Below are positions 4,616-34,812 of a stretch of DNA of 40,513 nucleotides, in pieces. A program made the translations under genes and the position numbers. Location of the stretch: the IMG/VR virus record IMGVR_UViG_3300035682_000077, positions 1-40,513 of that record; one strand, written 5' to 3'. The stretch's first letter is position 1; each line of letters starts with the position of its first letter. The notes below the pieces were generated by a model, which was given only the letters and a program-made list of their open reading frames with translations, ran no database searches and was not told the origin of the DNA. Source of the DNA: a virus.

Positions 4616-5075
4616 TTTTAATTTCCTTGTTATGACAGACATTCGCCAATTTATAGTATTTATCTATTTCGGCCATAATTCTCTTATGTTTTATATTGTC
4701 TCTTTGTAATTTATTAGTATATATTACGCTTTGACTATAATCTTTACAATTTTTCAATTTTAAATGTATTTGTTTTTCTACATTTACACTTGTTAATTGA
4801 CTATCCAATATTTTAATTCTATCTGATTCTAAAAACTTTCTATTATAATCTAATGTAATCCAGATCATTGCATGTTTCATTATATCAAATGTAAACTGTT
4901 CATTATCTCGTCTTCTTTGAACTACTATACCATTTGATTTTCTTGTTATACTGTATTTATTATATAATACATATTGATCATTGATTTTGATTATAATTTG
5001 ACTTAATAATTGTTCATATGTTCGTTCAACAATTTTTTCTAATTTACGATATGTCTTTTTTGTAGATTTTTTCAT
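4587..5075 (-). CDS. Conserved-type hypothetical, basic (162 aa)
   Basis: Not recognised by function. It is strongly basic at the N-terminus (MKKSTKKTYRKLEKI) and has no membrane segment. A central strand-rich part (DQYVLYNKYSITRKSNGIVVQRRRDN) is followed by helices with many Lys and Tyr. Its start overlaps the TGA of the 152-aa gene by 4 bases (ATGA), and its end overlaps the 232-aa gene. It is therefore the middle cistron of a late operon. A DNA- or head-associated role would fit the charge, but this is only an inference. Confidence 0.6.
   Translation of the reverse strand: MKKSTKKTYRKLEKIVERTYEQLLSQIIIKINDQYVLYNKYSITRKSNGIVVQRRRDNEQFTFDIMKHAMIWITLDYNRKFLESDRIKILDSQLTSVNVEKQIHLKLKNCKDYSQSVIYTNKLQRDNIKHKRIMAEIDKYYKLANVCHNKEIKNELNGISGK
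4657..4664 (-). promoter_or_regulatory. Late promoter GATAAATA inside the 162-aa gene
   Basis: GATAAATACT lies about 42 bases before ATG 4615, within the 3' end of the upstream reading frame (codons for K-Y-Y-K). It would add an internal late transcript for the 232-aa gene. Confidence 0.55.
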
Positions 5076-5530
5076 TTTAAAATCTCAAAATAAATATTAC
5101 GTTGTTCATCACTAATAGTCATTTGATTTGACAATTTAAATGTTTCTTCAAGTCTTAATATCATTGGTACTTGATTACAATCATCAGATAAACTACCAAG
5201 ATCATTTATACCATTATTAAAAACATCAGCATGATCTACTGAAAATGTAAAAGACCAAACATTTATTTTATTAATAGTTTTGTTATATGATTTTTCATAT
5301 AGATAACCAAAATTGAAATCTTTAAGATCATCAATATTTATTACTGTTAATTCACTTTCAGATATCTCTTCTGGTTGACTACGCATATTAATAATTTGTA
5401 ATATTGTTTCAAAATTACTTTGTTGACTGCGTTTTTTCATCTCATCTGCTGGGACGATTTCTGTATTCTTTTTTCTAAAATTAACATTGGTTTGAGTGAT
5501 ATCATACAATGTATAGCATTTGATTCTCAT
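5072..5530 (-). CDS. Conserved T4-like hypothetical (152 aa)
   Basis: The phrases KCYTLYDIT, RSQQSNFETILQIINMRSQPE and VWSFTFSVDHADVF recall, from memory, a conserved family of unknown function in T4-like marine phages (not checked). It is a soluble alpha/beta protein without obvious catalytic residues. The first candidate start is TTG 5533. ATG 5530 is preferred and sits 4 bases after a TCTAAATA late motif, so the mRNA may be leaderless. It is the first cistron of the operon 152 aa - 162 aa - 232 aa - 116 aa. Confidence 0.65.
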   Translation of the reverse strand: MRIKCYTLYDITQTNVNFRKKNTEIVPADEMKKRSQQSNFETILQIINMRSQPEEISESELTVINIDDLKDFNFGYLYEKSYNKTINKINVWSFTFSVDHADVFNNGINDLGSLSDDCNQVPMILRLEETFKLSNQMTISDEQRNIYFEILK

Positions 5531-5534
5531 CAAG

Positions 5535-5542
5535 TATTTAGA
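5535..5542 (-). promoter_or_regulatory. Late-type motif TCTAAATA next to a start codon
   Basis: TCTAAATA, then CTTG, then ATG at 5530. It follows directly after a terminator (5549-5576). The spacing implies a leaderless transcript. Confidence 0.55.
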
Positions 5543-5544
5543 AG

Positions 5545-5576
5545 AAAAAAAATCTCTTAAAAATTTAAGAGATTTT
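5545..5576 (-). terminator. Rho-independent terminator (leftward)
   Basis: A perfect 13-base inverted repeat (arms 5549-5561 and 5564-5576; core AAATCTCTTAAA) is followed on the minus strand by eight T. It ends the 82-aa / 439-aa / 25-aa operon. Confidence 0.8.
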
Positions 5577-5580
5577 AATA

Positions 5581-5658
5581 TTACGTTGGAGCGTATGGAT
5601 TACGTTTCCAATCACTATCAGTTGGTAGTTCTGGATATACTGGATAATCTATTTTCAT
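5581..5658 (-). CDS. Possible 25-residue peptide gene
   Basis: The ATG (5658-5656) overlaps the TGA of the 439-aa gene as ATGA. The frame encodes 25 residues (start [12 protein letters not shown], end [10 protein letters not shown]) and stops just before the terminator. The start overlap, Pro/Tyr/Trp-rich sequence and fit to the exact space before the terminator argue that it is translated, but the length is too short for certainty. It has no membrane segment. The function is unknown. Confidence 0.4.
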
Positions 5659-6974
5659 GGTATAGCATTAATTGTTGCTAATATTGCTTCAAGATCAGAC
5701 TTTAATAATTTAAGTTGATCTGGATCATTAAAATCTGTTCTATTAATTTTTCGAAGTAATTTTTTTCTATCTGTTTCTCTTTCAATAGAATCATCTGTTC
5801 CATCATGATCAATATCTGTAAATGATCCATATCCACCACTTTGTTTTTTACCTAATTTAGACCATGCCCATATGGTTTCCCATATTGAATCAACCAATTG
5901 ACTATTAATAGTTTTATTTTTTGCATATTCAGCATCAATTTTGTTGGCAATCATTTTAACATTGTTAGAATATGATGGATTGTTTACAAATCCTCGTGTT
6001 TGACCACGAACAAAATCTTGAACAAATTTGGATACAGATTCTGCTTCTGTTAACATACGACTTTCAACTACTCTACTGAATAATTTATATTGTTTATCTC
6101 TTGTTGATTCTTTAACCTTTGTCTCGGCATTCTTTGCGATTAACGTCTTATCATATTCTTCTTCAAAATCAAATTGAGCTTTCTCTGCCGCAGCAATTGC
6201 CTTCTCTTTGTTGTTTGATTTTGACATTTCTGCATTGAAGGCGGCCCATCCGGCGTCAGTTGATTTCTTTTTTAGATCATCCGCGGCCTGCTGTTTCGCT
6301 TTATTTTTTAGATCATCTTCTATGGATTTAGAAGTAGGAGCTGGCTTAGGCGATGGACTAGGAGCTGGTGATGGACTAGGAGCTGGCTTAGGAGCTGGAC
6401 TAGGGACTGGTGATGGACTTGGTGCTGACTTAGGCGATGGACTAGGCGATGGACTAGGGACTGGTGATGGACTTGGTGCTGGCTTAGGCGATGGACTAGG
6501 AGCTGGCTTAGGAGCTGGACTAGGGACTGGTGATGGACTAGGCGATGGACTAGGCGATGGACTAGGAGCTGGCTTAGGCGATGGACTAGGGACTGGTGAT
6601 GGACTTGGTGCTGGCGATGGACTAGGAGCTGGTGATGGACTAGGAGCTGGCTTAGGCGAAATGGCCGCAAGTTGTTTGGCTTTTCTCTGTTGAGCCAATT
6701 GTTGAGCGGCAGGACTATTCATAATATCTTTACCAGATTGTCCTAGTTGAGTAGTAGCAGATGTAGTTGTTGACGTAGAGGGTACGACTACTCCAGATTT
6801 AATCGCAGATTGTAACGAAGAAGATAATTGATTTAAAAAATCTTTACGACCATATTCTTTTATTTTTTCATCTCGCACTTTATTATTTTCATCTTTGGAT
6901 CTAAATTTACTAGCTATAGCTGAACCTAGACCCTCAGTAACATGTTTTGAGTTTGATAAATCACTGATTTTCAT
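5655..6974 (-). CDS. Proline-rich late protein with MKI-type N-terminus (439 aa)
   Basis: Three parts are visible. The N-terminus (1-100) begins [17 protein letters not shown] and continues as a charged helical region. Residues about 107-217 are an uninterrupted Pro-Ser/Ala/Lys repeat ([13 protein letters not shown] type), which should form a stiff extended linker. The C-terminus (about 220-439) is helical and charged, with [22 protein letters not shown] and an Asp-rich calcium-loop-like [10 protein letters not shown] (about 391-400). The start overlaps the TAA of the 82-aa gene (TAATG). It is expressed from the late promoter at 7227. The short MKI N-terminus resembles that of four other late proteins here, so it may be head-packaged. 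That is inference. Confidence 0.65.
6335..6655 (-). repeat. Short tandem repeats coding for a Pro-Ser linker
   Basis: About 320 bases of degenerate 6- and 12-base units (plus-strand words ggagctgg, ggcgatggac, gggactggtg) inside the 439-aa gene. All units keep the frame and code Pro-Ser, Pro-Ala or Pro-Lys pairs. The GC content is clearly above that of the surroundings. Such arrays can change length by slippage without frameshift, because the unit is a multiple of three. Confidence 0.85.
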
Positions 6975-7222
6975 TATTGACCTTTTGATCTTTTAAGACT
7001 TTTAGAAAACTTCTCTGTATCACGATTTTTAATCGCAATCAATAGTTTCTTTTCTAAAATTGCAGCCTGTTCTTCACTATAATTACGATCAATTACTTCA
7101 AGTAAATGAATAGCAGAATTGATGATATTGTTAGCACGAGATTCAATGATATGTGTGGTATCACGATTCTCAGCCACATATTCTAATTCTTCAAGAAGAC
7201 TACGAGTATTTTTTTTCATCAT
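6974..7222 (-). CDS. Small conserved-type helical protein (82 aa)
   Basis: A soluble, almost fully helical protein ([48 protein letters not shown]) ending in a basic tail. From memory, similar short proteins sit in this place in other T4-like phages, with no assigned function. ATG-ATG opens the frame at 7222. A GATAAATAC late motif ends 4 bases before it, so the message is probably leaderless. It is the first cistron of the operon with the proline-rich protein, which starts inside its stop codon. Confidence 0.65.
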
Positions 7223-7226
7223 ACTG

Positions 7227-7234
7227 TATTTATC
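7227..7234 (-). promoter_or_regulatory. Late promoter GATAAATA, 4 bp from ATG
   Basis: GATAAATA then CAGT then ATG 7222. It marks a switch from the replication genes gp61/gp41 to a late operon. Confidence 0.7.
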
Positions 7235-7243
7235 TCAGAACTC

Positions 7244-8662
7244 TTATTGTTTAGTCTTTATCTGATTTAATAAAGCGTTTAATTTACTAGATTGTACGTT
7301 TGCCACAACTTTTTTTGCAGAATCTACATTTTCAGTCACTTCACCAGTTGAAGGATCAATGATTTGACTGGATGTCTTGATCTTATTCAATAAACTACTA
7401 GCACTAGATACCGGCGCTTGACCATCTCCATTACTACCATCATCAAAAATTTTCAATGTATTAACATCAAACTGCAAATCAATCTTTTGACCTACACCAC
7501 TACTACTACGAGTCTTCATCAATTGTATCTGATATTGACCACGCTCACGCATACTACGACTAGTAAAGATACCAAATACATTATCAGCCGTATTGATTTT
7601 ACTAATACCACCTGAAATATGACTATGATCAAATTCAACTTCTTCAACTGCACTACGATTTAACTGTGATGCCGTTACAAACAATACATTAAGTTCTTTG
7701 GCCAAATTACGTAATTCTTCTGATACATATTTGTCTTTAATAAATAAATCACTTGGACTAACTTTTGTACTAACTGGCATTAACAAGTCCAAATAGTCAA
7801 CACATAAGAAATCAATCTTTACATCATATTCCATTTGTAAAGTTTTGATATAGGCTCTCATATCATTAACTGTACTTTGTGCTGGCATATATTTAATCCA
7901 GAATTTACCAGATTTCTTACTTGCCATTTTGACTTTCAATTCAACATCATCAACATGTTTAAATACATCACGAGTGGCAACATCAGTAATCATACTGTCA
8001 ATACGCCATGCAGTTAATTCTTCACTTAATTCAAGTGTAATATATACACCATTAAATCCAGCTTGTGCCCAATTGGCACTTAAGTTTTGCATAAACAATG
8101 ATTTACCACTTCCAGATCCACCAGCAAAGATTTGAAGTTCTCCACGATTAAATCCACCATAGAGTTTATTATCTAATACTGGCCAACCAGTACTGATCTG
8201 ACCATTGTTGTTCTTAATTGACATTAATCTGGCTCTTGGATCAGCAAAGTAATCTGTACCCATGTTCTTTGTCAATGAGATTTGAACCGCATCTTTGATC
8301 ATCTTTTCAACTGGATCAAAGTTACCTTTCTCCAATAGATCATAACTCTTGACAATAGCTCGTTCTAATTCTTGTCTACGAGTAAACTTTTCAAACTCAT
8401 CTAAAAACCATTCAACATCACTATCTCTCATTCCTGGAATTACTTCTAACTGAACACCAGTAGTAGCATGAATCTGTGCACTATCAGGTATAGCATTATA
8501 TTTCTCACTGAATTCCATGATAAACTTTGCCGCAGATTTTAATCCCTTGTCAAAGTTTTCACTATTCATAATGTTACTGACTCTAGTATATAACTGAGCA
8601 TCAGTCATCATCATTCGTAAAAATAATTCTTGTATTTCTCTTGTATATTCAACTTGGGTCAT
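7244..8662 (-). CDS. 41: Replicative DNA helicase gp41 (DnaB-like)
   Basis: A hexameric 5'-3' replicative helicase of the T4 primosome. The N-terminal domain (1-150) is helical. The RecA-like core follows, with Walker A GGSGSGKS (181-188), Walker B FLCVDYLDLL near 290, the DnaB-type phrase VTASQLNRSA and the late motif QIQLMKTRSSSG. At 472 aa it matches the T4 protein's length. The ATG overlaps the TGA of gp61 by 4 bases (ATGA), so primase and helicase are translationally coupled, as expected of partners. Both depend on the promoter at 9679-9707. The Ser/Gln-rich C-terminus is probably flexible. Confidence 0.95.
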   Translation of the reverse strand: MTQVEYTREIQELFLRMMMTDAQLYTRVSNIMNSENFDKGLKSAAKFIMEFSEKYNAIPDSAQIHATTGVQLEVIPGMRDSDVEWFLDEFEKFTRRQELERAIVKSYDLLEKGNFDPVEKMIKDAVQISLTKNMGTDYFADPRARLMSIKNNNGQISTGWPVLDNKLYGGFNRGELQIFAGGSGSGKSLFMQNLSANWAQAGFNGVYITLELSEELTAWRIDSMITDVATRDVFKHVDDVELKVKMASKKSGKFWIKYMPAQSTVNDMRAYIKTLQMEYDVKIDFLCVDYLDLLMPVSTKVSPSDLFIKDKYVSEELRNLAKELNVLFVTASQLNRSAVEEVEFDHSHISGGISKINTADNVFGIFTSRSMRERGQYQIQLMKTRSSSGVGQKIDLQFDVNTLKIFDDGSNGDGQAPVSSASSLLNKIKTSSQIIDPSTGEVTENVDSAKKVVANVQSSKLNALLNQIKTKQ

Positions 8663-13380: not shown

Positions 13381-14838
13381 TCATCTATATTTGAATTTCT
13401 CTATCGTGAAGGGATAGTTTGCTTCACGATAAAACTCTTTTCGTTTAGTTAAATGACGTTTAGCAAATCTACAACTACTGGTTAGATCCCAAATTTGAAC
13501 GAAATCTTTATCTTCCGCTTTTCTAATACCACGTCCAATACTCTGAATAACTCTTGTGAAACTTTTTCCAGATTCAACCATAACCAAATTAAAAATTCTT
13601 GGTATGTTAAGTCCAACTGCAGCAATACCATATGTGGCAATAATTACTTTATCATCACTGGTTGCTACTTCATCATACTCAACTTTTCTAACTTTTGTTT
13701 TATCTTTACCACTCAGAAATACACTATTAGGTATTCTAGCAGCCAATTCATGTCCAGCAGCCACACGATCAACCAAGATCAATGTATTACCAGTTTCAAT
13801 AATCTTTTCTATAATCAAACTAAGAGCATCAAGTCTATTTCTATCTTCAAGTAAATGTTTAAGTTCAGATTGATAATCACCAAATTCTAATTCATCTTGT
13901 AGTTGTACAATGTTAACATGACACTTGGATAATACATTCTTTTCTTGTAACTCTGAGGCTGATAATTTATTAATTACTGAACCAATACTAACCATTAAAG
14001 CAGCATAAGCATATTTGTCTTTGGGAATTGTACCGGTTAATCCCCAACGAATTGGTATCTGTGAGAATACACCAGTAAGTAATGTCTTAAGAGCATCTGC
14101 CTTAGCCATATGAACTTCATCTACCATAACCAATACTACATCTTCAATAAATTCTTGAATAGTTATATTTGCCGTACCGTCTTTGGTATTCTTCAATAGA
14201 TTGTTTAAACTTTGCCATGTACATATTGTATGTTTACGACCAAACTCTTTACGATCACCATAATATACACCAACATCTAGACCTAAATTAATATAATCTG
14301 CCTCTGTTTGTGTAACTAAATCTTTGTTTGGTACAATTACAATTGATCTACCATATGGTTCTACTCTATAAGACAGAGCGGCAGTCATAAGAGTTTTACC
14401 AGCACCAGTGGCAATTTCTTGTAATGATTGTGGATTGGCCAAAAAGTTATTGACAATTGCAATTTGATAGTCACGTAGAATTACAGGTTGACCTTCACGT
14501 TCATGACCTTTGGGCCAGAATTTACCATCAAATGTATGTTCATCTACTAAATCAAATGAGAATGTGGTATTATAATCTCTAGTATCTATTAGTTCAACAT
14601 CATAGTTTCGTTGATCTAGATATTCTAGTATATCGGGTAATAGATTAATGTATGTGGATCCACTCAATTGAAAATAGGATACTTTCCCATTCCAACGACC
14701 CAATCGGACACTTGGTTGATATCGTGCGCCAGGAATTTCATACTCAAACATTTTGACCAACGCTCTACGATCAACAACATCCAAGTCTTCAATTTTTACG
14801 TTTACTTCATCTTTAATTATTAATTTACACTGTCTCAT
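13381..14838 (-). CDS. uvsW: UvsW-type recombination helicase
   Basis: A superfamily 2 helicase that unwinds branched DNA and R-loops and helps switch from origin- to recombination-dependent replication. An N-terminal substrate domain (1-115) precedes the helicase: RDYQIAI (Q motif), Walker A ATGAGKT (143-149), Walker B MVDEVHMAKAD (near 240), motif III GLTGTIP, motif VI QSIGRGIRKAED. At 485 aa it is shorter than T4 UvsW (587 aa). A consensus sigma70 promoter has its TATAAT 7 bases before ATG 14838, so the mRNA is probably leaderless. Confidence 0.93.
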   Translation of the reverse strand: MRQCKLIIKDEVNVKIEDLDVVDRRALVKMFEYEIPGARYQPSVRLGRWNGKVSYFQLSGSTYINLLPDILEYLDQRNYDVELIDTRDYNTTFSFDLVDEHTFDGKFWPKGHEREGQPVILRDYQIAIVNNFLANPQSLQEIATGAGKTLMTAALSYRVEPYGRSIVIVPNKDLVTQTEADYINLGLDVGVYYGDRKEFGRKHTICTWQSLNNLLKNTKDGTANITIQEFIEDVVLVMVDEVHMAKADALKTLLTGVFSQIPIRWGLTGTIPKDKYAYAALMVSIGSVINKLSASELQEKNVLSKCHVNIVQLQDELEFGDYQSELKHLLEDRNRLDALSLIIEKIIETGNTLILVDRVAAGHELAARIPNSVFLSGKDKTKVRKVEYDEVATSDDKVIIATYGIAAVGLNIPRIFNLVMVESGKSFTRVIQSIGRGIRKAEDKDFVQIWDLTSSCRFAKRHLTKRKEFYREANYPFTIEKFKYR

Positions 14839-18262: not shown

Positions 18263-19174
18263 TTACTCAGTAAAAAGCGTATTATATGTGGAATTTACTA
18301 CTTTTTTGACTTTGGGAATGATGATATCTGGCTGTGGGATATAATTCAATACAGCGATTTCTGTACCACGACTATTTTTCTTATAATTTTCTTGTTTATG
18401 ACCACGAGTACTAGACCAACGAAATACATCTTGACTATGCCAATGATATTGATCTTTGGGATACCATTGTTCTAATTCTGGAAAATCATAATAACTTAAA
18501 CACCATTTACCTTGAGCGTTTTTAAGTGTATCAGCCAATTCTAAATGTTTTGTATCTGGGAATTCTGCCGTATATAAATATTCTTTCTTAAAATATGGTG
18601 GATCAACATAAAAGAATGTAGTTGGACTATCATATTTTTTAATCAAGTCAATACAATCCATGTTTTCTACTTGTGTAACACCAGTTAATCTATCAGTATA
18701 AGTTTTATTTGTTAACTTATCTTTTATAGTATCATATTTGCTACCATACTTTCCATTACTGGCAGTATCACAAAAATAACTATTAGTATTCAGACCAAGT
18801 GTTGTACCACTAAAGATTTGAGTTTGAAGATAAAGATATTTTGCAGCCAATACAACATCACCAAGAATTACAGTTGATGAATTTCCAAATATATCTTGTT
18901 GAAATTGTTTATATAATGTTGGATCGCTTTTGGAATAACTTTCTAATTCTTGTAATAATTGTATATGTTTGGATCTAAAACATTCATGAATATTGGCAAT
19001 AAAGATATTAAAATCGTTATATACTCTAGTTGAACATTGTAAGATTCTTTTACTACGAATACCAACCCATCCAGCCCCACCAAATACTTCTACGAATGTA
19101 GTCATTCCAGAAACTGGAAATAATGGATCTAACCATTTAACATGATTGGCTTTACCGCCGATATATGGGAACAA
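18263..19174 (-). CDS. dam: DNA adenine methylase, copy 1 (D12 class, 303 aa)
   Basis: It transfers a methyl group from SAM to N6 of adenine. The Dam-family order is clear: FPYIGGK at the N-terminus (2-8), SAM-binding FVEVFGGAGWVGI (27-39), and catalytic DPPY (191-194) in FFYVDPPYF. The start codon is TTG (19174-19172), with GGAG 6 bases upstream and a sigma70 promoter with TATACT; no ATG fits. It is a paralogue of the gene at 20583, with the same N-terminal and catalytic motifs but clear divergence elsewhere. Likely roles are protecting phage DNA from restriction or marking it. The target site cannot be read from sequence. Confidence 0.9.
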   Translation of the reverse strand: MFPYIGGKANHVKWLDPLFPVSGMTTFVEVFGGAGWVGIRSKRILQCSTRVYNDFNIFIANIHECFRSKHIQLLQELESYSKSDPTLYKQFQQDIFGNSSTVILGDVVLAAKYLYLQTQIFSGTTLGLNTNSYFCDTASNGKYGSKYDTIKDKLTNKTYTDRLTGVTQVENMDCIDLIKKYDSPTTFFYVDPPYFKKEYLYTAEFPDTKHLELADTLKNAQGKWCLSYYDFPELEQWYPKDQYHWHSQDVFRWSSTRGHKQENYKKNSRGTEIAVLNYIPQPDIIIPKVKKVVNSTYNTLFTE

Positions 19175-19206
19175 AGATATCTCCTAAGTATACTTAATTA
19201 AATAAT

Positions 19207-19235
19207 AGTATACTATATATTGTACATTATGTCAA
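19207..19235 (-). promoter_or_regulatory. dam: Sigma70-type promoter for methylase copy 1
   Basis: TTGACA (19235-19230), 17 bp, TATACT (19212-19207). It lies in the gap after the 440-aa gene. Confidence 0.88.
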
Positions 19236-19249
19236 TATTATTTGGATAG

Positions 19250-20572
19250 TTATTTGATGCCTTGTTCTCTTTTGGCGGCTCTAACAATATCACCCACGTC
19301 CCACATATGAGGGAATGTGCCACCTTCTTTGAATCCAACATTGATTTTTACTAATTGTTCGCCTTCTTCACTTTCAATAATTAGATTACACGATACAATA
19401 TCTGGACTATCTGGAATATCATATCTAATATTGAATCCGGATTTCAACTGTTGATATAGTTGCCCAAACTCTTTACTGGTTCTACTACTAACCGGAATCA
19501 TTCTTTGACGTTCAGTTCCGACCAATAGATATACATCATCCGCACCATCTAGTCCCAAACGTTGTAGAATTCTTTCGTTGATTGCGGCTTTATCACGACC
19601 ATAAAAATCATTAAACATTCTGCCAAATAATAGATCGCGCATCTTTTGATATCCACGATTAGCGGTAACAAATTCATTTGCAGTTTTTCTATAATTTGGA
19701 TCGTTCTTTTTCTTAAGATCGTTTTTTATAACAAGCCATTGATCGGTAATAGCCAGAACTTCTTCAACTTCTTGAGTATATTCTGGATGATCTTTTAAAA
19801 ATGATTTAACAGCTTTCTTACCAGTTCCAGGATCATTTTTACCTGTTAGAACAGTAACTAGATAACTAGCAAAAGTACTATTATAAACATTAACACCGCC
19901 TGAATTTTTATATAATTTCAGACTGGCCTTGATCATGTCTTGAGTTTCTTCGGTACCTTTCTTTTTGATTTTGATCAAAATATCTTCTTTACCAGCACCC
20001 ATAGATGAGATTCCAGTCAAGACAATATCAACATCAATCAATTTAAGATCATGAGAGGATATAATTTCGTCCCATAATTTTTTAGCCATGATTTCTGAAC
20101 CATCTTCGGCTCGTTGAAGTTCAGATTGAATTGTTGCTAATGGTTTCTTGAATTTTTCTGCATTATCCAAGATAAGATTTTTATAGTTTTCAGCATGTCT
20201 TTTCAACCCACCTTCAATTGACGGATTGATATTTACACCATTGTGTTCAAAAGCATATGCAAGTTTCCATGCCACGCTGAATTCATTGAAGTAACCAATC
20301 ATTGCGGTCAAGTCAAATTTATCTCTAGTGGCCTTAGGTTTTGGTGGTTTTGTTTTTGGATCAGGAGGAAGTGAATTTGATTGATTCACTGGTGTCGTTG
20401 ATTCTGTTGATTCTCTAAGAGAGTTAAGTCCCATAGCAGTCGCTAAATTAATTTCCACTTGTTGACCAAATCCTATACGTTTAATAATTTTTCCAACCCA
20501 GTCAAATATTTTCTGAGCACTGGTTCTAGTCCAATTGATAATACCTTCGTGTAAGAGTTCGTTGATTTTCAT
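19250..20572 (-). CDS. Late protein, possible PD-(D/E)XK nuclease, MKIN N-terminus (440 aa)
   Basis: It starts MKINELLHEGIINW, a short amphipathic leader like those of other late proteins here. A Pro/Lys linker (about 60-85) leads to a globular domain. A plausible nuclease core is Glu97 in YFNEFSVAWKLA, Asp197 in GKEDILIKI, and Ser217-Leu-Lys219 in IKASLKLYK, which fits the E...D...xK order of restriction-type enzymes. No close family is recognised. I use ATG 20572; the frame also opens at 20596 but that would precede the promoter's start region. Its own late promoter overlaps the stop of methylase copy 2. The gene lies between two adenine methylases, which suggests, but does not prove, a modification/cleavage pairing. 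Confidence 0.5.
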   Translation of the reverse strand: MKINELLHEGIINWTRTSAQKIFDWVGKIIKRIGFGQQVEINLATAMGLNSLRESTESTTPVNQSNSLPPDPKTKPPKPKATRDKFDLTAMIGYFNEFSVAWKLAYAFEHNGVNINPSIEGGLKRHAENYKNLILDNAEKFKKPLATIQSELQRAEDGSEIMAKKLWDEIISSHDLKLIDVDIVLTGISSMGAGKEDILIKIKKKGTEETQDMIKASLKLYKNSGGVNVYNSTFASYLVTVLTGKNDPGTGKKAVKSFLKDHPEYTQEVEEVLAITDQWLVIKNDLKKKNDPNYRKTANEFVTANRGYQKMRDLLFGRMFNDFYGRDKAAINERILQRLGLDGADDVYLLVGTERQRMIPVSSRTSKEFGQLYQQLKSGFNIRYDIPDSPDIVSCNLIIESEEGEQLVKINVGFKEGGTFPHMWDVGDIVRAAKREQGIK

Positions 20573-20579
20573 AATATAG

Positions 20580-20587
20580 TATTTATT
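20580..20587 (-). promoter_or_regulatory. Late promoter AATAAATA overlapping a stop codon
   Basis: AATAAATACTATATT then ATG 20572. The TAA of methylase copy 2 is part of the motif. It has the same CTATAT(T/C)ATGAAAATC context as the kinase-like gene at 32370. Confidence 0.65.
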
Positions 20588-21509
20588 CAAATTCAAACAA
20601 ATTCGTATCAGCTAGATTTATCTTTGATTTAGTTATTATATCAGATTTTAAATCTGGTGTATAGTTTAATATCAATACTTCTACTCGTTTTGTTCTGACA
20701 CCTTTAGCCTTTTTACCATCTTTTCTCACAGCACCATCAACCTTGGTTAATCCATTGTTACTATATGTAACTTGTTCATGCCAGTAAAATTTGTCTCTTG
20801 GCATGATATCTTCAAGTTCTTTGAAATAGTAATAACTTAGAGCAAACTTACCCTTCATAGTACTCATTTGAGTCAATAATTCAATATGATCATCACGACC
20901 AAAACTGTTCTTAGTATAGTAATCTTCTAAATTAAAGTACGGTGGATCAACATAAAAGAAAGCATCTGAACTGTCATATTTTCTGATAACATCACGACAA
21001 TCCATGTTTTCAGTTTGTAATACTGCCAATTTGTCCAGATACTTTTTCTGTTCAAACTTCTCAGCGTAGGTAAAAAACTTAGGCTTGTATTTGGGATTAT
21101 GATAGATGTTACTACGTTCATGAATACCCATACCACCACTGAAAATTTGAGTTTGAAGCAACATATACTTGGCTGCTAGATCATAGTCAGGAATAGCAAA
21201 TTGAGTGTTATATACAGAAAATACATCATCACGATATTGTGTGAACATTTTGGCATCACCCACATCTTTATAATAACTTTGCAATACTTTATGATAATGT
21301 TTTGGATCTGTTGCTGAGCACTGAAATACATTAACCAAATGTCTATTAAAGTCATTGTATACGTTTGTTTGTACAGAAGTTTTAGCACTTTGCCAATACA
21401 TCCACATTGCCCCACCAAATACTTCTACATAAGTAGAAAAATCAGTTGGGAACAATGGGTCAATCCATTTACTATGTTGTTTCTTGCCACCGATATACGG
21501 GAACATCAT
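20583..21509 (-). CDS. dam: DNA adenine methylase, copy 2 (D12 class, 308 aa)
   Basis: An N6-adenine methyltransferase. MFPYIGGKKQHSKW at the start, SAM-binding YVEVFGGAMW (27-36) and catalytic DPPY (188-191) in FFYVDPPYF are intact. The last 60 residues differ from copy 1 (basic stretch RKDGKKAKGVRTKRVE). Starts are ATG 21509 or, better spaced from AGGA, ATG 21506. It follows UvsY by 6 bases and belongs to the gp32-UvsX-UvsY transcription unit, so it would be made with the recombination genes. Copy 1 has its own early promoter, so the two may act at different times or on different sites. Confidence 0.9.
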   Translation of the reverse strand: MMFPYIGGKKQHSKWIDPLFPTDFSTYVEVFGGAMWMYWQSAKTSVQTNVYNDFNRHLVNVFQCSATDPKHYHKVLQSYYKDVGDAKMFTQYRDDVFSVYNTQFAIPDYDLAAKYMLLQTQIFSGGMGIHERSNIYHNPKYKPKFFTYAEKFEQKKYLDKLAVLQTENMDCRDVIRKYDSSDAFFYVDPPYFNLEDYYTKNSFGRDDHIELLTQMSTMKGKFALSYYYFKELEDIMPRDKFYWHEQVTYSNNGLTKVDGAVRKDGKKAKGVRTKRVEVLILNYTPDLKSDIITKSKINLADTNLFEFE

Positions 21510-21515
21510 TGATCC

Positions 21516-21977
21516 TTAAATTGAGAAATCTTCCATACCAGCAGTTTTTAATCTAACCAGATGGCCCATCATAAAGTTTTTACTTTCTAATGCTTTCATA
21601 ATACCAAGCCATTTGTTACGTAGTAAAGCAACTTCATTACATAATGTTTCCATGTCAATAATGTCTGATTCTCCATCTACATAACGCTCAGCATCACGAC
21701 TAGTTAATGCTCTATTGTAAGCCTCTAGAAATTTTTTAAATGTCTGACTACGTAATTTTCTAAGTTGAATGTTTAAATAATTAAGAACTGCTTCAATTTC
21801 TTGAAGTTGATTGAATCGTTGTTCTGTAATTCCTGGTAAATATGCTATACTCTTTTCTATACTACCCTTGATATGAGTATCAAATTTTGCCTGATTTAAT
21901 TCAGTTTCATAATGAGAAATAAAATCAGGCAAGTTTGCTAAGTTTTGAGTAATCTTAGTATACCAATTCATACTCAC
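21516..21977 (-). CDS. uvsY: UvsY recombination mediator
   Basis: It helps UvsX displace gp32 and load on ssDNA. The family landmark is the C-terminal half: RALTSRDAERYVDGESDII, a helix LCNEVALLRNKWLGIMKAL, then ESKNFMMGHLVRLKTAGMED, which corresponds in order to T4 UvsY (WGILL..., ..IKHIQDMRAF). The preceding helix (EIEAVLNYLNIQLRKLRSQ) is also typical of the longer marine versions. At 153 aa it is slightly longer than T4 UvsY (137). The start is GTG 21977 (overlapping the previous TGA) or ATG 21971. Its place behind uvsX supports the call. Confidence 0.85.
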   Translation of the reverse strand: MSMNWYTKITQNLANLPDFISHYETELNQAKFDTHIKGSIEKSIAYLPGITEQRFNQLQEIEAVLNYLNIQLRKLRSQTFKKFLEAYNRALTSRDAERYVDGESDIIDMETLCNEVALLRNKWLGIMKALESKNFMMGHLVRLKTAGMEDFSI

Positions 21978-22255
21978 CAGTCTTCATCATCTTCATCAGA
22001 TTCATCGTCATAAAAATCAGATTGATCTTCATTCAATTCATCTTCTTCACTATCAGACCAATCTTCAGAATCCATATAATATTTTAATGCATCAATAATA
22101 TCACCCTCACCACGAAATGCTTTACGAATTTCATCTGGGCCAATATCATGATCAATCAACAGAGAAATGACATTATCCGCAACAACTGAACGATCACTAC
22201 TAATGATGCTTTCTTTAACTGCCGACCACATTTCGGCTACTAATGTTAAACTCAT
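21974..22255 (-). CDS. Small acidic protein between UvsX and UvsY (93 aa)
   Basis: A helical N-terminal part (LVAEMWSAVKESI, ADNVISLLIDHDIGPDEIRKAF) is followed by an extremely acidic tail (about 66-93, mostly Asp and Glu with Ser and Tyr). Such proteins are, from memory, conserved between uvsX and uvsY in T4-like marine phages, with no known role. The acidic tail could mimic DNA and modulate a DNA-binding partner such as UvsX, UvsY or gp32 (inference). A GAGGAGG Shine-Dalgarno and TAATG overlap with uvsX imply tight coupling. Confidence 0.7.
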   Translation of the reverse strand: MSLTLVAEMWSAVKESIISSDRSVVADNVISLLIDHDIGPDEIRKAFRGEGDIIDALKYYMDSEDWSDSEEDELNEDQSDFYDDESDEDDEDW

Positions 22256-23313
22256 TATTCAATTTCCTCCTCAATAATTGTATTTATAACCTGATCTTGT
22301 TTACCAAATTCATCCATTACTAAATCCATAATACCATTTTCATTCTTAGACCATTCTTTACGAAAGTATTTGTGAACTTCACCATTAAGATCAGTATAAG
22401 TATAACGATTACCTTCTTTCTTAATCATACTACGTTTTTCAATAAGATCAAAGAAACCACTATATGGATTCATACCAGTTTCATAAGGAATCTGAATTTG
22501 AATATCTTCAAATGGTTTGGCATAACGAGTTTTCATAATTTTACATCCGGCACGAATACCAAGAACATCAGTAACTTTATTACCAGCCTCATCTTCTTTT
22601 AGTTTGAGTTTTTTCATTGCCACTACAATTGAACTGGCATATACGAAACCACTACCACCACTGATCTTTGGATCGGGACTATATGGATCTTGTGATTCAT
22701 AACTATGATTAGTACAAATCATACCTACATTCAAACTACCAAACATGTTAACACAATTGGTTACCAATGATTTAAGAGCTTTAGGTTTGTGACCCATATC
22801 ACCCTTCATTTCACCACCTTGAAATTGATTAACTTGAACTGGTGTCATTAACATACCCAATGAATCAACTACAAATAATACTTTTGGTCTATCTTCTGGT
22901 TCCAATGCTTTATAATCTTTCATGAATACAGCTATTGTTTTAGCCACATCATCAACCATAGCCATGTTTAATTTCAATAGTTTTTCTTCACTAGTATCAA
23001 CACCTAATGCCAATAACCAACTTTCGTCAAGTGCATTTTCACTATCAATTAATACAACATAGATTCCTTGAGCTTGAGCATTTTTAATAACATTTCCACT
23101 ACAGATATATGATTTACCGGCACCACTTTCACCAGCAAATACAGTAACTTTACCAAGAGGAATACCCTTGTTAAAGTCACCACTAATCAAATAGTTTAAT
23201 GCATAATTGCCAGTACTGATCCAATCTGTTGGATCATGAAATCCAATACTCATACCTTCAATTGACTTTGTAATATCTTTTCTAAACTTTGATAGATCAA
23301 AGGGTTTTTTCAT
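22255..23313 (-). CDS. uvsX: UvsX recombinase (RecA-like)
   Basis: Catalyses homologous pairing and strand exchange for recombination-dependent replication and repair. The RecA-type core shows Walker A GESGAGKS (61-68), Walker B VLFVVDSLGML (near 145-155), and the L1/L2-region phrases QVNQFQGGEMKGDMG and SYESQDPYSPDPKISGG. The acidic, helical end is like that of phage UvsX. At 352 aa the length is normal (T4: about 390). The start overlaps the upstream TAA (TAATG) with AAGGAA as ribosome site. Confidence 0.95.
   Translation of the reverse strand: MKKPFDLSKFRKDITKSIEGMSIGFHDPTDWISTGNYALNYLISGDFNKGIPLGKVTVFAGESGAGKSYICSGNVIKNAQAQGIYVVLIDSENALDESWLLALGVDTSEEKLLKLNMAMVDDVAKTIAVFMKDYKALEPEDRPKVLFVVDSLGMLMTPVQVNQFQGGEMKGDMGHKPKALKSLVTNCVNMFGSLNVGMICTNHSYESQDPYSPDPKISGGSGFVYASSIVVAMKKLKLKEDEAGNKVTDVLGIRAGCKIMKTRYAKPFEDIQIQIPYETGMNPYSGFFDLIEKRSMIKKEGNRYTYTDLNGEVHKYFRKEWSKNENGIMDLVMDEFGKQDQVINTIIEEEIE
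22281..22288 (-). promoter_or_regulatory. Possible internal late promoter TATAAATA
   Basis: An exact T4 late consensus within the last codons of uvsX, about 26 bases before the acidic 93-aa gene, with GAGGAGG between. It may be a chance match in AT-rich coding DNA. Confidence 0.35.
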
Positions 23314-26239: not shown

Positions 26240-28333
26240 TTATTTTCTATGATCCAAAAATCTTTGCATTGTAGCCATTTCTTTATGATATCTTCTAATA
26301 TCATCTTCAGTTGGTTGTTGTTGAAGACTAGTTGGAGTTCCTGGAATAGCACTTGGTGATCCCATACCGGCACCACCAAACTCTGGATTATCAGCTTCAT
26401 CCAATCCTTTATCTACTGGGAATCCCATACGTTCGGCAGCCAATTGCATATAATGTTCTACTTCACCATCATCTAAAGCATTTGGCATTGCTGATCTCCA
26501 AAGTTTAAACTTTTGTTCATAAGTAGCATCTGGATTTTTTAAGATTTCTCTCATTGGAGTGGCACGTGGCCCTTCCTCATTTGAATATTGATCGCCAGTT
26601 TCTTGACGACTAATGATATTCAATTTATCAAAGTTGAATATAATATTCCCTTCTCTTTTAGTTGGTTGACCATTATACTTGAGTAAATATTGAAATTCAT
26701 TCTTCTGATCTGCACCTACTACTACAACAGCATTCTTATAACCATCTTTATTAAGTTCATGTAATACATCTATCAAGTTTTTAGAACTTTGAAATGATGA
26801 TGAATGTTGAGGAAATACTGTACGATAGATATCTAATTTTTCATCTGGCATTAATGGATCATCTTTACCAGTAGTTTCACTAACAATAAAATATGGATCG
26901 GCATTTATTTTTTTAGCCATAGTGAATACGGCATTTGCCAAATACATATGACCTTTATGACCCATACCACGACCCCAACCAACTACACATGTGTCACTAT
27001 CACCGATTTTCTGAATGTTTTCTTTTAGAGCCGCTTTGGCACTTTTAGCAAGTTTAGGGTCAGTTTTTACTTCACTTTTTTTTGCCAAACCAACTCTACC
27101 CTGTGCTCTGTTAGCAGCAGTGAATCCACCACGCTTAACAAATTTTAAGGGTTGACTACCACCAGTTGGATCACTTACAAGTCCTTCTCCACTTTTTGCT
27201 CCACCAGGCAATTCTGCTCTAATATGAACATCTTTAAGTGTTGGTTCTTCTACTTGATCAACGATAGCATCTTTTACATTCATAATGCCACGAACTAATT
27301 TGAATGTAGCACTAAGACCAGCGCCACCATTTTTAATCATATCAATGGCTATCTGTCTACGACCCTTTGTAAATATAGGATCTGTTTCTGCCCATTGAGC
27401 CATGTTACCGCCAAGATTTTCTAATCCACCTGGATGATCTACTTGACTGTTAACATATTTATATATTGATGCTCTCCATTGTTTTGTGGCTGTCGCTGGA
27501 TCTGCAAAAGTTGCAATCCATTCTGGAGTTGGTGTAACAAAACCTTCAATAGCACTAGCATTACTAGTTAGAAAACTGTATAATTTATTGATTGCACTAG
27601 TTGGAATTTGTGCTTGAACCATTGAATACTTTGGTGGTAATATAATAACATCTTTACTACCAACACCTTGAATAAGTTGTGTTAAATTTTCAGTTCTTCT
27701 TTGTCCACCTAAACCAGGCAATTGATCAAAATAAGCTGTAATAGCTGATGCTGAAGTACTTTGAGCGATACGTTGTCCTAATGGACTATTTTGATCTACA
27801 TGATAGATAACAGTATTTGGTTTAAAGTAATATTCACCCTTGTCATTAAGTTCAGGTCTTGTTTTATATAATAAACCACCCTCTAAGAATCCACGAAAAT
27901 CTTTTGGTGTGGCTGCATCATATATACCATGTAACTCAGCCATACTATTTACAAATATCATTCTATCTTGACTAACTTCACCTTTACTACGTCCAATATA
28001 ACTACGTTTTACATCTTCTGGACTAGCATTGAATTCTTTATGAAACTTATCACCTAAATGAAAACGACCTTGTTCATCACGACCAAAAATGATAGCTGGA
28101 CTTCCGTCCCATTTGATCTCTAGATGACTACTATCTTTAGCAATACTCGCCAGCCTGTCTATGGCTCTCTTGGCGCCTGTCGGACCATAAATGTATACTA
28201 AATCTTCAATGTGTTGAAATTCACGACCAACATCCTCTACTTTATCTTCCATCAAAGTAGGATCAATTAATTCAGATACTTCTTGTCCGATAATTCTTGT
28301 TAATTGTTGTTCAAATAGTTTCAAATAATTCAT
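26240..28333 (-). CDS. Ligase-like / NMNAT-like fusion (697 aa)
   Basis: The N-terminal part has the nucleotidyltransferase-ligase motifs: motif I KWDG (Lys74-Gly77), a motif III-like GFLEGGLLY (148-156), motif IV EGLV (383-386), and motif V LKFVK (396-400). The C-terminal part has a cytidylyltransferase/NMNAT-like core: GRGMGHKGH (454-462, HxGH signature), an AVVVVGADQK strand and a GPRATPMRE end motif. A Gly/Pro/Gln-rich tail follows. It could seal RNA or DNA and make or use NAD-type cofactors; the substrates are unknown. It starts MNYLKLFEQQLTR, like the other late leaders. ATG 28333 is preferred over GTG 28345. It shares a late operon with the 467-aa protein. Confidence 0.65.
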   Translation of the reverse strand: MNYLKLFEQQLTRIIGQEVSELIDPTLMEDKVEDVGREFQHIEDLVYIYGPTGAKRAIDRLASIAKDSSHLEIKWDGSPAIIFGRDEQGRFHLGDKFHKEFNASPEDVKRSYIGRSKGEVSQDRMIFVNSMAELHGIYDAATPKDFRGFLEGGLLYKTRPELNDKGEYYFKPNTVIYHVDQNSPLGQRIAQSTSASAITAYFDQLPGLGGQRRTENLTQLIQGVGSKDVIILPPKYSMVQAQIPTSAINKLYSFLTSNASAIEGFVTPTPEWIATFADPATATKQWRASIYKYVNSQVDHPGGLENLGGNMAQWAETDPIFTKGRRQIAIDMIKNGGAGLSATFKLVRGIMNVKDAIVDQVEEPTLKDVHIRAELPGGAKSGEGLVSDPTGGSQPLKFVKRGGFTAANRAQGRVGLAKKSEVKTDPKLAKSAKAALKENIQKIGDSDTCVVGWGRGMGHKGHMYLANAVFTMAKKINADPYFIVSETTGKDDPLMPDEKLDIYRTVFPQHSSSFQSSKNLIDVLHELNKDGYKNAVVVVGADQKNEFQYLLKYNGQPTKREGNIIFNFDKLNIISRQETGDQYSNEEGPRATPMREILKNPDATYEQKFKLWRSAMPNALDDGEVEHYMQLAAERMGFPVDKGLDEADNPEFGGAGMGSPSAIPGTPTSLQQQPTEDDIRRYHKEMATMQRFLDHRK

Positions 28334-28334
28334 T

Positions 28335-29738
28335 TTAAATTCCACTTAGACGCTTAATATGATCCAACAAACTCATTGCCTCTTTAACAGGCGGTGGTGG
28401 CGGAATATTATTTTGTACTGGTGCAGCAGGTTCTTTCGGTTGTTCAGCCGGAGGTTCTGCAGGTTCTTCTGGTTCCGGAATCACTGGTTCTTCATCAGTT
28501 GATTGTACTTTATCTAATATCTCATCGTATTCACGACCTAATTGTTCTGACATCCAAGCTATGATAATTGGACGAGCATCTCTATTAGAATCAAGTGAAG
28601 CCGCTTTCATTAATCTAGCATTCAAACCATCTTTTTCTAAGATACCTGATAATTCACCAATTGCGTTTGACGCATCTGGACCAAGTGGAATAATATCACT
28701 ATCATTACCAAGTAAATCAATCAATTCTTCTTTTTGTAATGGTTGATTTGGAATTAATGCCTCTCCAATTAGATTATCTGCCCATGCTTCAAACATAGAA
28801 GCTTCATTTGTTTCTGTTATAGTTAAGTTTAAACGACTTAAAATAGGCAATGCCGATTCAATACGAGTATCTAATGTATTAGTTCTAAACAATTCAGTTA
28901 AATTACTAGTATCACCATCTTCCATAATAGTTGGCTGCCAACTTTCAAAATAGTTATTATATCCACGAGTACTTTGTAAACGTTTTAATGATTCTCTTAA
29001 ACTTTGATAGTGATTAGCGGCTTCTGTAACAATACGTTGTACACTTTCATTAAATTGTCCAGATTTTGTGGCTCTTACAAATCCACCTAGTTTCTTAACA
29101 TCTTGAACCATTTCACTGATATGACTCCAACGTTGATCGTTATATTGTCCACCTTCTGCCAAATGTCTAGCAAATACACGACCAATTGATGGTTTAGTTG
29201 AAGGTACCAATACACGTTCACCCATTTCATTTTCTAAAAAGATACGCTCAACATAACGATATCTGGCATCTGTTTCACCTAATGTCTTATTATGTTTAAT
29301 AATCATTTTAATAGTTGGTGGGCCATTATCACTATAACTTGTATGTTTGTTACCGTAATATCCTTCAGCAATATTTTTTCTGTGTTGTCTTACTTTCATA
29401 TCATCATCCAATTTACTCATATCTTTAAGTTTTTTCTTCAATCCATGAGTAATAGCAAAATGACCCATTTGATCAATAAACTTAACCCAACCAGTATTTT
29501 CATCTGATGAACGTGTCACAGATGTGTTGAAATAAATTATTAAAAATCTTGAATCATCAACAGTAATAGTAACAGTACCATAACTCTTTTCGCCACTTTC
29601 AAACTTAAATTGAAATGCTTCTGCTTCTTCTGGAATAGGAACTTGTTGACCGGCACTATCATACATAGTGACAGAGTATCCACGACCACGTAATAGATCG
29701 TATAATTCAATATTGACTGATTCAGTACTTTTTGGCAT
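28335..29738 (-). CDS. Conserved T4-like late protein of unknown function (467 aa)
   Basis: I recognise the overall pattern from marine T4-like phages: a start SVNIELYDLLRGRGYSVTMYDSAGQ, then IAEGYYGNKHTSYSDNGPPTIKMIIKH, the segment FARHLAEGGQYNDQRWSHI, and a Pro/Glu-rich tail (PEPEEPAEPPAEQPKEP) ending in a short amphipathic helix. No enzyme motif is seen. The family has, to my knowledge, no fixed function, and a virion role is likely from its late promoter. It lies between gp17 and the ligase-like gene, two bases from the next start. Confidence 0.7.
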   Translation of the reverse strand: MPKSTESVNIELYDLLRGRGYSVTMYDSAGQQVPIPEEAEAFQFKFESGEKSYGTVTITVDDSRFLIIYFNTSVTRSSDENTGWVKFIDQMGHFAITHGLKKKLKDMSKLDDDMKVRQHRKNIAEGYYGNKHTSYSDNGPPTIKMIIKHNKTLGETDARYRYVERIFLENEMGERVLVPSTKPSIGRVFARHLAEGGQYNDQRWSHISEMVQDVKKLGGFVRATKSGQFNESVQRIVTEAANHYQSLRESLKRLQSTRGYNNYFESWQPTIMEDGDTSNLTELFRTNTLDTRIESALPILSRLNLTITETNEASMFEAWADNLIGEALIPNQPLQKEELIDLLGNDSDIIPLGPDASNAIGELSGILEKDGLNARLMKAASLDSNRDARPIIIAWMSEQLGREYDEILDKVQSTDEEPVIPEPEEPAEPPAEQPKEPAAPVQNNIPPPPPVKEAMSLLDHIKRLSGI

Positions 29739-31725: not shown

Positions 31726-32370
31726 TTAGTATTCTTCTTCAACTACCCATGGATCAAGGATAACTATTGTCCCATTGTTTCGCATCATGAAGTTTTTAGG
31801 ATTTAGATCAAATGTCCATCCTTTTCTCTCAGATATGCGAGCAAGTTCACCCATAGTTTTGTAAAATAGTTTTAACCCATTTTTTCCATCGGTTTTTTCA
31901 AAATGATCGTATAATTCTTTGTTTTTGTCGTATTTTTGAATCATTTGATCAAAACTATCGCCCATTTCCGCATCAGTTGACATATTGTATAAGTTCCATC
32001 CCCAAGTTGGTCGTAACTCAGTTAAATACTCTTGACGTATTTGTAAGTAAACGTGATCATTCCAATAGAAGCTTTCAAAGCCGCTGAACTTAGGTAGAAA
32101 TGGATTACTCTTATGATCGTTACAATACTTAGCCCAAGTAAAGAACATTTTATGATCGTTAGAGAACTTTGGGTTTGTTCTTTTTCCCGATGGAGCATGT
32201 GCAACATCATATTTAGTTCCAAATATTTTAAGAACTTGACCAGTTCCTGGTTCAAGAAATGATGTTTGATCAACACCTTTCCCTAAAAGCTTATATCCTT
32301 TATCAGTGAGATATTTAATGATTTCTGGATCAGTGTCAGTATATTCGTCTATAATTTGATTGATTTTCAT
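31726..32370 (-). CDS. Kinase-like (protein kinase fold) late protein, MKIN N-terminus (214 aa)
   Basis: A short leader MKINQIIDEYTD is followed by a minimal kinase-like core. There is a Gly-rich turn LLGKGVDQTSF (about 28-38), a lysine in QVLKIFG (Lys48), a hinge-like VYLQIRQEYL, and a catalytic loop FDLNPKNFMM with Asp188 and Asn193. A DPW (206-208) stands in the place of DFG. Spacing and order match aminoglycoside-phosphotransferase/HipA-type kinases rather than eukaryotic ones. The substrate is unknown. It has its own ACTAAATA late promoter and terminator, so it is an independent late unit. It could be packaged and injected. Confidence 0.6.
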   Translation of the reverse strand: MKINQIIDEYTDTDPEIIKYLTDKGYKLLGKGVDQTSFLEPGTGQVLKIFGTKYDVAHAPSGKRTNPKFSNDHKMFFTWAKYCNDHKSNPFLPKFSGFESFYWNDHVYLQIRQEYLTELRPTWGWNLYNMSTDAEMGDSFDQMIQKYDKNKELYDHFEKTDGKNGLKLFYKTMGELARISERKGWTFDLNPKNFMMRNNGTIVILDPWVVEEEY

Positions 32371-32377
32371 GATATAG

Positions 32378-32385
32378 TATTTAGT
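32378..32385 (-). promoter_or_regulatory. Late promoter ACTAAATA, 7 bp from ATG
   Basis: ACTAAATACTATATC then ATG 32370. It has the same promoter-start context as the gene at 20572. Confidence 0.65.
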
Positions 32386-32424
32386 ATTTTACTCAACAAA
32401 CTTTATCATGATAAAATTTTATGT

Positions 32425-33153: not shown

Positions 33154-34812
33154 TTATTTTCTTAGTAGTGGTGGACGACCATTTCTGGCTATTTTCCAAC
33201 CAAGTTTGGCAGCATTTTTTTTCATAGTATCTGGATGAATATCTACTGTTAATGCGGTCTTGAATCTAGGATCATTCTTTTCACTTTCACTAGGAATGTA
33301 ACCGCTTGCTTCTTTTAATGCCGCTTTTCTCATGTAATGATTACGCAACTCTAAATCTTTTCTGGTGGCTTTTCTGATCAGATTCAAGTATTTGTTTACA
33401 GGAACTTCTATTATTTTCATCGGCTCAATTGCGGTGACTTCAGGCACTGAATGAAACTCTCTGCTATTCCCACCTTGCACGAACTGCGGTTTCCCATCGG
33501 GATCATACATCGGCACTTTATGCAGATATACCTTTTCGCCTTTTCGTATGTTGCCACTAAACAAAACCATCTGCGGATCATTGGGGAACATTCCGGTATC
33601 TGAACCAGAAGTAGTAAGTCCCATTGCTATAGCAACTTTTGGATCGGTAGTAGCATAGATAGCATTTTGATTGCTACCAGCGGCTCCTCCTGTATCTTTT
33701 GCTTGACGAGGAATTAAAACTTCATTTCTATGTCTGGATCCGTGCCATAGATAAGTGTTCTTTGAATGTTTGACATCTTCTGCCACATTAAATGTTGGAT
33801 CTGTTTTTTGACGAGGCATATTTTTAGGCTGATCAGGGTCTATAGGATCAATATCAGTTGTTTCAAGTCCTAGTCTCTTTAAGGCATTTATATAATTGTG
33901 TTCTTCTTCTTCGCTTCCAAATGCCATTATGGTACTTGGAGGACCTTTTCCAAAAATACTTGGATCTACTTTATCTAAGTTACTAATGTTTGTTCCTAGT
34001 TTATACCAATCGTATAAATCACTAACATCTACTCTAACTGTACCTTTGGGCATAGTAGGCTTAGATTCAGGACCAGGAGGTACATCATTTGGATGCCAAT
34101 CTTCATCTAAACTTAATTGGATACTATATAATCTGTTACGATGATTATATAACTTGTCAATGATTCCGTTAGTACGTAAGATTTTAAATGCAATGTTTTC
34201 TGGTCCAAATTCACCATGTTTATCTAACCCAGCCTGACGATAACGTTTAATAGTACTAAGTACTTTGTCAATTTGATCTATATTATTACTTCTATTAGCA
34301 ATTTCAGCCATTTGAACTAATTTAGTTACTTTATTTTTTACTGAATTTTGATCTATTGATGCACGTTGTTTTCTTGGAAATTTAATCCACTTATCATTAA
34401 GTATACTATATTCACCTAAACTTTTTACTGGTTGATTTTTATCTTGAACATATAATTCTACATCATAACCACGAATTTTAATATCATGATCAGCGTTAAA
34501 TAGATTTTTCTTGGCAGTAAATAATTCTCTATATATATCATCATTATTAATCTTGTTCATATCTACTAAAATATGTAGATCAATATCACTATGATCAGTA
34601 TAGGTATAAGCAGCATTACTACCACTTAGTGTAATATCATCAATATCTAGATTATTAATTCCCAAATAGTCAATGAATTCATTTGCTATTTCTAACAATT
34701 TTTCTCTAACATCAGATGCCATACGTTCATCATTAAATAACATTGGATTTAATTCTGTGCGAAATTTAATTGCATCACTTAATTTGTAAGATTCTAATTC
34801 ATTGATATTCAT
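33154..34812 (-). CDS. Nucleotidyltransferase / ADP-ribosyltransferase-like fusion (552 aa)
   Basis: The N-terminal domain has the pol-beta-type NTase core: LSGSNAAYT with Gly64-Ser65, then SDIDLHILVD with Asp76 and Asp78, and a third acidic residue in YDVELYVQD (117-119). A middle region (about 160-330) is helical, with a Gly/Pro turn. The C-terminal domain resembles ART folds: LWHGSRHR with His357, NAIYATTDPKVAIAMG with Tyr386, and HSVPEVTAIE with a Glu (458). This fits H-Y-E-type transferases. It starts MNINELESYKL, like the other late leaders. It follows the papain-like gene by 5 bases and shares its late promoter. A toxin or head-packaged modifier is plausible. Confidence 0.6.
   Translation of the reverse strand: MNINELESYKLSDAIKFRTELNPMLFNDERMASDVREKLLEIANEFIDYLGINNLDIDDITLSGSNAAYTYTDHSDIDLHILVDMNKINNDDIYRELFTAKKNLFNADHDIKIRGYDVELYVQDKNQPVKSLGEYSILNDKWIKFPRKQRASIDQNSVKNKVTKLVQMAEIANRSNNIDQIDKVLSTIKRYRQAGLDKHGEFGPENIAFKILRTNGIIDKLYNHRNRLYSIQLSLDEDWHPNDVPPGPESKPTMPKGTVRVDVSDLYDWYKLGTNISNLDKVDPSIFGKGPPSTIMAFGSEEEEHNYINALKRLGLETTDIDPIDPDQPKNMPRQKTDPTFNVAEDVKHSKNTYLWHGSRHRNEVLIPRQAKDTGGAAGSNQNAIYATTDPKVAIAMGLTTSGSDTGMFPNDPQMVLFSGNIRKGEKVYLHKVPMYDPDGKPQFVQGGNSREFHSVPEVTAIEPMKIIEVPVNKYLNLIRKATRKDLELRNHYMRKAALKEASGYIPSESEKNDPRFKTALTVDIHPDTMKKNAAKLGWKIARNGRPPLLRK

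Follow-up and report, generated by a model that had tools for sequence, protein, structure and literature searches.

In phage T4, a short N-terminal leader sends proteins into the core of the prohead (PMC9958956), and Alt is processed after its ITE-6 site (PMC5694885); a gp21-type prohead protease is also encoded by phage CBB (PMC5259590). For jumbo phages, fusions of Mom (momylation) and restriction endonuclease (REase) were predicted to protect the phage by its own modification and to turn the linked REase-fold nuclease against the DNA of hosts or rivals (PMC7824862). Likewise, polyvalent or injected phage conflict proteins were proposed to be virion-delivered enzymes used against the host or competitors once inside the recipient cell (PMC5512222). 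Here, we compare with these systems a locus from a 40.5-kb virus contig (IMG/VR record IMGVR_UViG_3300035682_000077, positions 1-40,513; in the following the window, i.e., the whole stretch of 40,513 nucleotides that was analysed). It comprises three minus-strand genes that are flanked by uvsY and uvsW, i.e., two adenine methyltransferase genes, MTase A (20583..21509) and MTase B (18263..19174), and between them a 440-aa orphan (19250..20572), which we call NUC. Our best reading, put forward tentatively as somewhat short of probable, is that NUC is a virion-cargo gene, probably for a nuclease, that is linked to MTase A as a protective methylase.

That MTase A and NUC are a linked pair within one clade of T4-like jumbo phages is strongly supported by the compared sequences. 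The NUC relatives from IMG/VR fall into four sequence groups, namely the window copies (90-100% identity), L030 and L032 (~51-53%), L075/L090 (~45%) and L104 (~42%). Every relative found directly follows MTase A, in the order gp32-uvsX-uvsY, with MTase A being 61-100% and NUC ~42-100% identical, and among these relatives NUC occurs in one clade only. A dN/dS (ratio of nonsynonymous to synonymous divergence) of 0.06-0.12 marks NUC as a genuine gene that evolves under purifying selection; its preferred start is the ATG at 20572, although the open reading frame (ORF) could likewise begin at the TTG at 20596. No match was found in PHROGs, PADLOC or PDB and none above threshold in Pfam; DNA and protein searches over 50,697 phage and 72,556 plasmid records were empty, and no relatives were found among genome contigs. 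Weak matches to Pfam RecA_C (E 0.008) and phrog_601 (E 0.05) were judged to be chance because the L030/L032 orthologues do not repeat them.

Both methylases are of the D12 class (N6-adenine) according to Pfam and PHROGs. They match MethyltransfD12 (PF02086) with E=2.8e-19 (MTase A) and E=1.7e-19 (MTase B), i.e., with about 70 bits each versus a cut-off of 22, and share invariant FPYIGGK and DPPYF motifs. MTase A, which starts with an ATG at 21509 or 21506, was assigned to phrog_56 (DNA methyltransferase, E=3.5e-41), and its nearest PDB structure is DpnM (2dpm, E 4e-5); MTase B has a TTG start. The original prediction had described two paralogous DPPY methylases around a 440-aa gene, and both coordinates and gene content agree with what we find, the two being ~42% identical. 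A recent tandem duplication was rejected as their origin since MTase B is closer to methylases of other viral contigs (45-47%) than to MTase A. That both methylases form one island with NUC holds in part only. The MTase A-NUC linkage is conserved, while in L030/L032 NUC has no MTase B next to it and just one methylase of the D12 type is encoded on a related 170-kb contig; the unit is therefore MTase A plus NUC, and on these comparisons MTase B is a facultative neighbour. With regard to the methylase target site, tetranucleotide avoidance gave no clue (GATC observed/expected = 0.99).

MTase A and NUC moreover appear to recombine as one block. When the window is compared with its siblings L005 and L008, the synonymous divergence (dS) is 0.26-0.42 for MTase A/NUC, but 0.05-0.11 for MTase B, which lies outside the exchanged block, and 0.12-0.18 for uvsX. 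An outright replacement is seen in contig 3300028025_003690 (L029), whose flanking DNA is mostly 92-100% identical to the window as far as the MTase A start and reaches ~97% again immediately past the NUC stop, at 19252. Its MTase A shows 88% protein identity, lowest in the first half and at the 3' end, compared with 98-99% for uvsY and MTase B. Between both methylases, the swapped slot (4158-7767 of that contig) contains no NUC but three leader-bearing late genes, i.e., one for a DUF4116 repeat protein, one for a kinase-like protein with a relative at window positions 31726-32370, and one for a 398-aa protein in which the motif D-VEF...GVSIK is present. Each of the three carries a promoter of the NUC type and an MK-leader. 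When the profiles of NUC and the 398-aa protein were compared, no similarity emerged; a common function would thus be convergent or too distant to see.

Linkage and co-inheritance of a methylase and a nuclease candidate, as in type II restriction-modification, are thus found here in four groups and with a shared block exchange. The locus could also be read as having no joint function at all, i.e., as two anti-restriction methylases plus an unrelated passenger gene in a recombination hot spot. MTase B, being optional and with a history of its own, would fit such a reading, as would the foreign genes that come and go between the methylases. We nevertheless consider it quite improbable, given that MTase A and NUC keep their adjacency down to 61% and ~42% identity, respectively, and lie together in a single block of elevated dS.

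The methylases and NUC belong to different promoter classes. Sigma-70-type sites (TTGACA-17 nt-TATAmT-like, at least 11/12 matches) are located before gp32, uvsX, MTase B and small downstream genes, on the coding strand only. The uvsX-unit promoter (23371-23343, minus strand, 11/12 matches) precedes an early recombination unit (21516..23313, minus strand) of uvsX (22255-23313), a 93-aa gene and uvsY (21516-21977; UvsY PHROG match with E=8e-12). MTase A begins only a few bases past uvsY and, therefore, belongs to the same unit. The early promoter of MTase B (19207..19235, minus strand; TTGACA-17-TATACT, 11/12 matches) is conserved in L029. NUC, on the other hand, lacks such a site and shows the T4-type late element AATAAATACTATATT (ATAAATA) immediately 5' of its ATG. 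The complete late-type promoter TTGAATAAATACTATATT (20573..20590, minus strand) overlaps the stop codon of MTase A and has no Shine-Dalgarno sequence. The NUC-type element also precedes each gene of the swapped L029 slot as well as NUC in L030 and L090.

To assess the element's enrichment, we used the 45 nt upstream of 199 genes from the window and the related 170-kb contig, with intragenic windows and shuffled upstream regions as controls. TAAATA occurs in 24% of the upstream regions (1.7% intragenic, 9% shuffled) and [GA]ATAAATA in 14% (0.4% and 2%). For the exact TATAAATA consensus, the window shows no enrichment; the element of this phage group is ATAAATA. The same motif was reported before structural genes of CBB, where it is the expected late promoter (PMC5259590). 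The division into early methylases and a late NUC, as originally proposed, is thus well supported by these promoter sequences. One class of late promoters directly abuts the ATG without a Shine-Dalgarno sequence (window 20573-20590 and 32371-32390, and the L029/L030 equivalents), which would yield leaderless or nearly leaderless mRNAs.

A packaging-type leader had also been claimed for NUC, and it bears up. The N-terminus (20546..20572, minus strand) reads MKINELLHE, followed by G, resembles the T4 capsid-targeting sequence and has an (L/I)xE site at residues 7-9 (LHE). Homologues start with MKINDLLQE (then S), MKIRDFTKQEQQLNE (then G) and MKIHDIVQE (then N), i.e., the site is VQE in one of them. 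Searching IMG/VR for the promoter-ATG sequence identified 46 stretches. The genes that follow them include NUC and those of a superoxide dismutase and an amidoligase-like protein, along with a large number of orphans whose leaders read MKI-x-E-I. Within residues 5-18, (L/I)xE is present in 13/21 distinct leaders versus 32/199 background genes (p=1.3e-5), where the leader search itself demanded an MK start and 7/33 MK-starting background genes have the site. Contigs that share the promoter-leader unit encode a protease that is 49% identical to CBB_255 (gp21-type prohead protease), located beside portal or major capsid genes. No such protease was found in the window fragment, and the 170-kb contig gives only a distant short match. 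From the leader pattern, packaging of NUC into the virion is a well-founded prediction.

Some further genes have starts or promoters of this kind. The kinase-like protein at 31726-32370 of the window (phrog_15752, E 8e-6), a second version of which resides in the L029 slot, has the leader MKINQIIDE and a late promoter right at its ATG. At 33154-34812, a 552-aa protein starts with MNINEL; it combines an N-terminal nucleotidyltransferase-like domain (weak Pfam match, phrog_36119) with a C-terminal region that is ADP-ribosyltransferase-like by eye (HGS...YATTDP) and is possibly an Alt-like cargo. A 439-aa protein at 5655-6974 starts with MKISDL and contains a long Pro-Ser/Ala repeat. Outside the window, the iron/manganese superoxide dismutase gene of L088 (714-1262; also in L094 and L118) has a NUC-type late promoter and a leader ending in LVE before A, which suggests a virion-carried superoxide dismutase in another phage.

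The leader also bears on where NUC would act. A late nuclease could work in the producing cell and outside the virion, either in DNA processing before packaging or in destroying superinfecting or host DNA. The late promoter of NUC and its location in a recombination/replication cluster agree with this, and uncharacterised REase-fold proteins of related jumbo phages were proposed as junction resolvases (PMC7824862). We consider it unlikely, however: the N-terminal leader with its protease site is conserved while the linker that follows is variable, similar leaders are found on unrelated proteins under the NUC-type promoter, and the restriction of NUC to one clade, together with its replacement in a sibling, argues against a core replication role.

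With regard to the activity of NUC, the original prediction named Glu97, Asp197 and Lys219 as parts of an E-D-xK nuclease core. All three residues are invariant in every relative covering them, i.e., down to ~42% identity, and so are K195-E196, K215 and S217 as well as the stretch IKASLKLYK. The E...GKED...IKASLK set, as expected of a metal-dependent nuclease, is the best-conserved part of the protein, against which the leader and the linker (residues 50-85) vary freely. The order E(helix)-strand-D(strand)-SLK-helix fits a PD-(D/E)XK core, an assignment based solely on motif and conservation. A D-h-x-h...S-[LIV]-K motif is present in 3/254 ORFs, two of them NUC orthologues, compared with a shuffled rate of 0.5%; this pattern was picked after NUC had been seen, such that the numbers are descriptive. 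From its residue pattern, NUC is probably a nuclease, i.e., a PD-(D/E)XK-type candidate with predicted activity.

Taken together, the proposed mechanism would run as follows. MTase A, made early, would methylate the phage genome and thereby protect the progeny. NUC, made late, would be loaded into the prohead core via its T4-type leader, trimmed after LHE, and ejected into the next cell together with the DNA. There, as a PD-(D/E)XK-type DNA nuclease with E97 on the first helix, D197 and S217-x-K219, it would cut DNA without the MTase A mark, i.e., host chromosome, resident prophages or plasmids, or competing phages, whereas the phage DNA that enters with it, being methylated, would be spared. 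MTase B would provide a second mark, most likely against host restriction. The joint claim that NUC is a nuclease, is packaged and is blocked by MTase A is possible, at best a little short of probable. That the locus represents a virion-delivered restriction system, in which phages trade methylase-nuclease pairs as cassettes at a single cargo slot, may be considered possible but rather doubtful.

Several observations weigh against this interpretation. None of the profile searches (Pfam, PHROGs, PADLOC, PDB) places NUC in a nuclease family, and the third motif of the protein is SLK instead of (D/E)xK, i.e., the acidic residue would need to be E97. While the residue pattern of the claimed nuclease core stands, its fold does not find support: AlphaFold models of NUC are poor, with a mean pLDDT (predicted local distance difference test) of 46.8 and 55.0 (one run with 9 near-identical input sequences, another with 6 that were more diverse) and mostly below 50 around K219. 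They place two strands and a flanking helix in the correct order, but the third strand is not modelled. A Foldseek search with these models gave nothing at E<=0.001, and its list was discarded because both models are poor. Furthermore, the packaging case for NUC itself has the leader as its sole basis. The uvsY comparison is uneven as well (dS 0.08 in L005 versus 0.61 in L008), i.e., the upstream edge of the block varies, and linkage plus block exchange would equally fit hitch-hiking. Finally, with its kinase-like and DUF4116 repeat genes, the L029 slot is not for nucleases only.

These slot genes also bear on an account in which NUC is packaged and ejected but is no nuclease, i.e., it would be an effector of host takeover or against defence, in the manner of the kinase-like and ADP-ribosyltransferase-like leader genes, and would occupy a cargo slot prone to recombination, with the methylases independently countering host restriction. 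The superoxide dismutase and the amidoligase-like protein that share the promoter-leader unit of NUC, as well as the missing nuclease-family match, point in the same direction. We hold this account to be possible, if with considerable reserve: the most conserved stretch of NUC is the one of a metal-dependent nuclease, the 398-aa replacement protein has a comparable D...SIK, and MTase A stays beside NUC in all lineages found.

The wider context is that of a known phage group. By its sequence, the window comes from a T4-like jumbo phage, of which it covers a fragment. The UvsX encoded there shows 62-66% identity to RecA-like proteins of Vibrio phage 2.275.O, CBB, GAP32 and relatives, and the order gp32-uvsX-uvsY-...-uvsW is common to window and CBB, with CBB having a DNA polymerase III epsilon-like gene at the position held by MTase A/NUC/MTase B in the window. 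Further genes of the window encode a 701-aa protein (26240-28345) whose DUF6267 N-terminal part contains a KWDG motif and whose C-terminal part is cytidyltransferase-like (phrog_3041), and a papain-family cysteine protease (34818-35675; Peptidase_C1, E 8e-19). In L005, an HNH-type homing endonuclease-like gene (by eye; 13992-14771) is located on the opposite strand directly past uvsW and has no counterpart in the window.

If the preferred reading of NUC as packaged nuclease is true, restriction-modification logic would be divided in two, with one part synthesised early and the other delivered by the particle. This would explain how a phage can destroy host or rival DNA at once on entry while remaining unharmed itself. 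Even if NUC is no nuclease, the promoter-plus-leader signature predicts which genes of uncultured jumbo phages encode virion cargo, and the region beside uvsY is defined as an exchangeable cargo slot.

Compared with known systems, NUC shares with IPI/II/III and Alt of T4 that it is a late gene with a short N-terminal leader and an (I/L)xE site (PMC5694885, PMC9958956), and phages related to its own have a gp21-type prohead protease. The similarity is confined to the leader pattern, i.e., NUC is a candidate nuclease instead of an inhibitor or ADP-ribosyltransferase, and its packaging is predicted. As in type II restriction-modification, an adenine methylase adjoins a nuclease-like gene and both move as a block, with MTase A being nearest to DpnM of the DpnII system; here, in contrast, the pair is encoded by a lytic-type phage, the two genes are of opposite timing classes, and NUC carries a leader and matches no known REase family. 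Polyvalent proteins offer a parallel in the proposed delivery, although no domain of that class was found in NUC, for which no dedicated membership test was made. The closest published idea is the jumbo-phage Mom-REase fusion (PMC7824862), with which the prediction of self-protection and linked attack is shared. What is new is that MTase A and the candidate nuclease are separate genes, predicted to be expressed early and late, respectively, with a virion-type leader on NUC.

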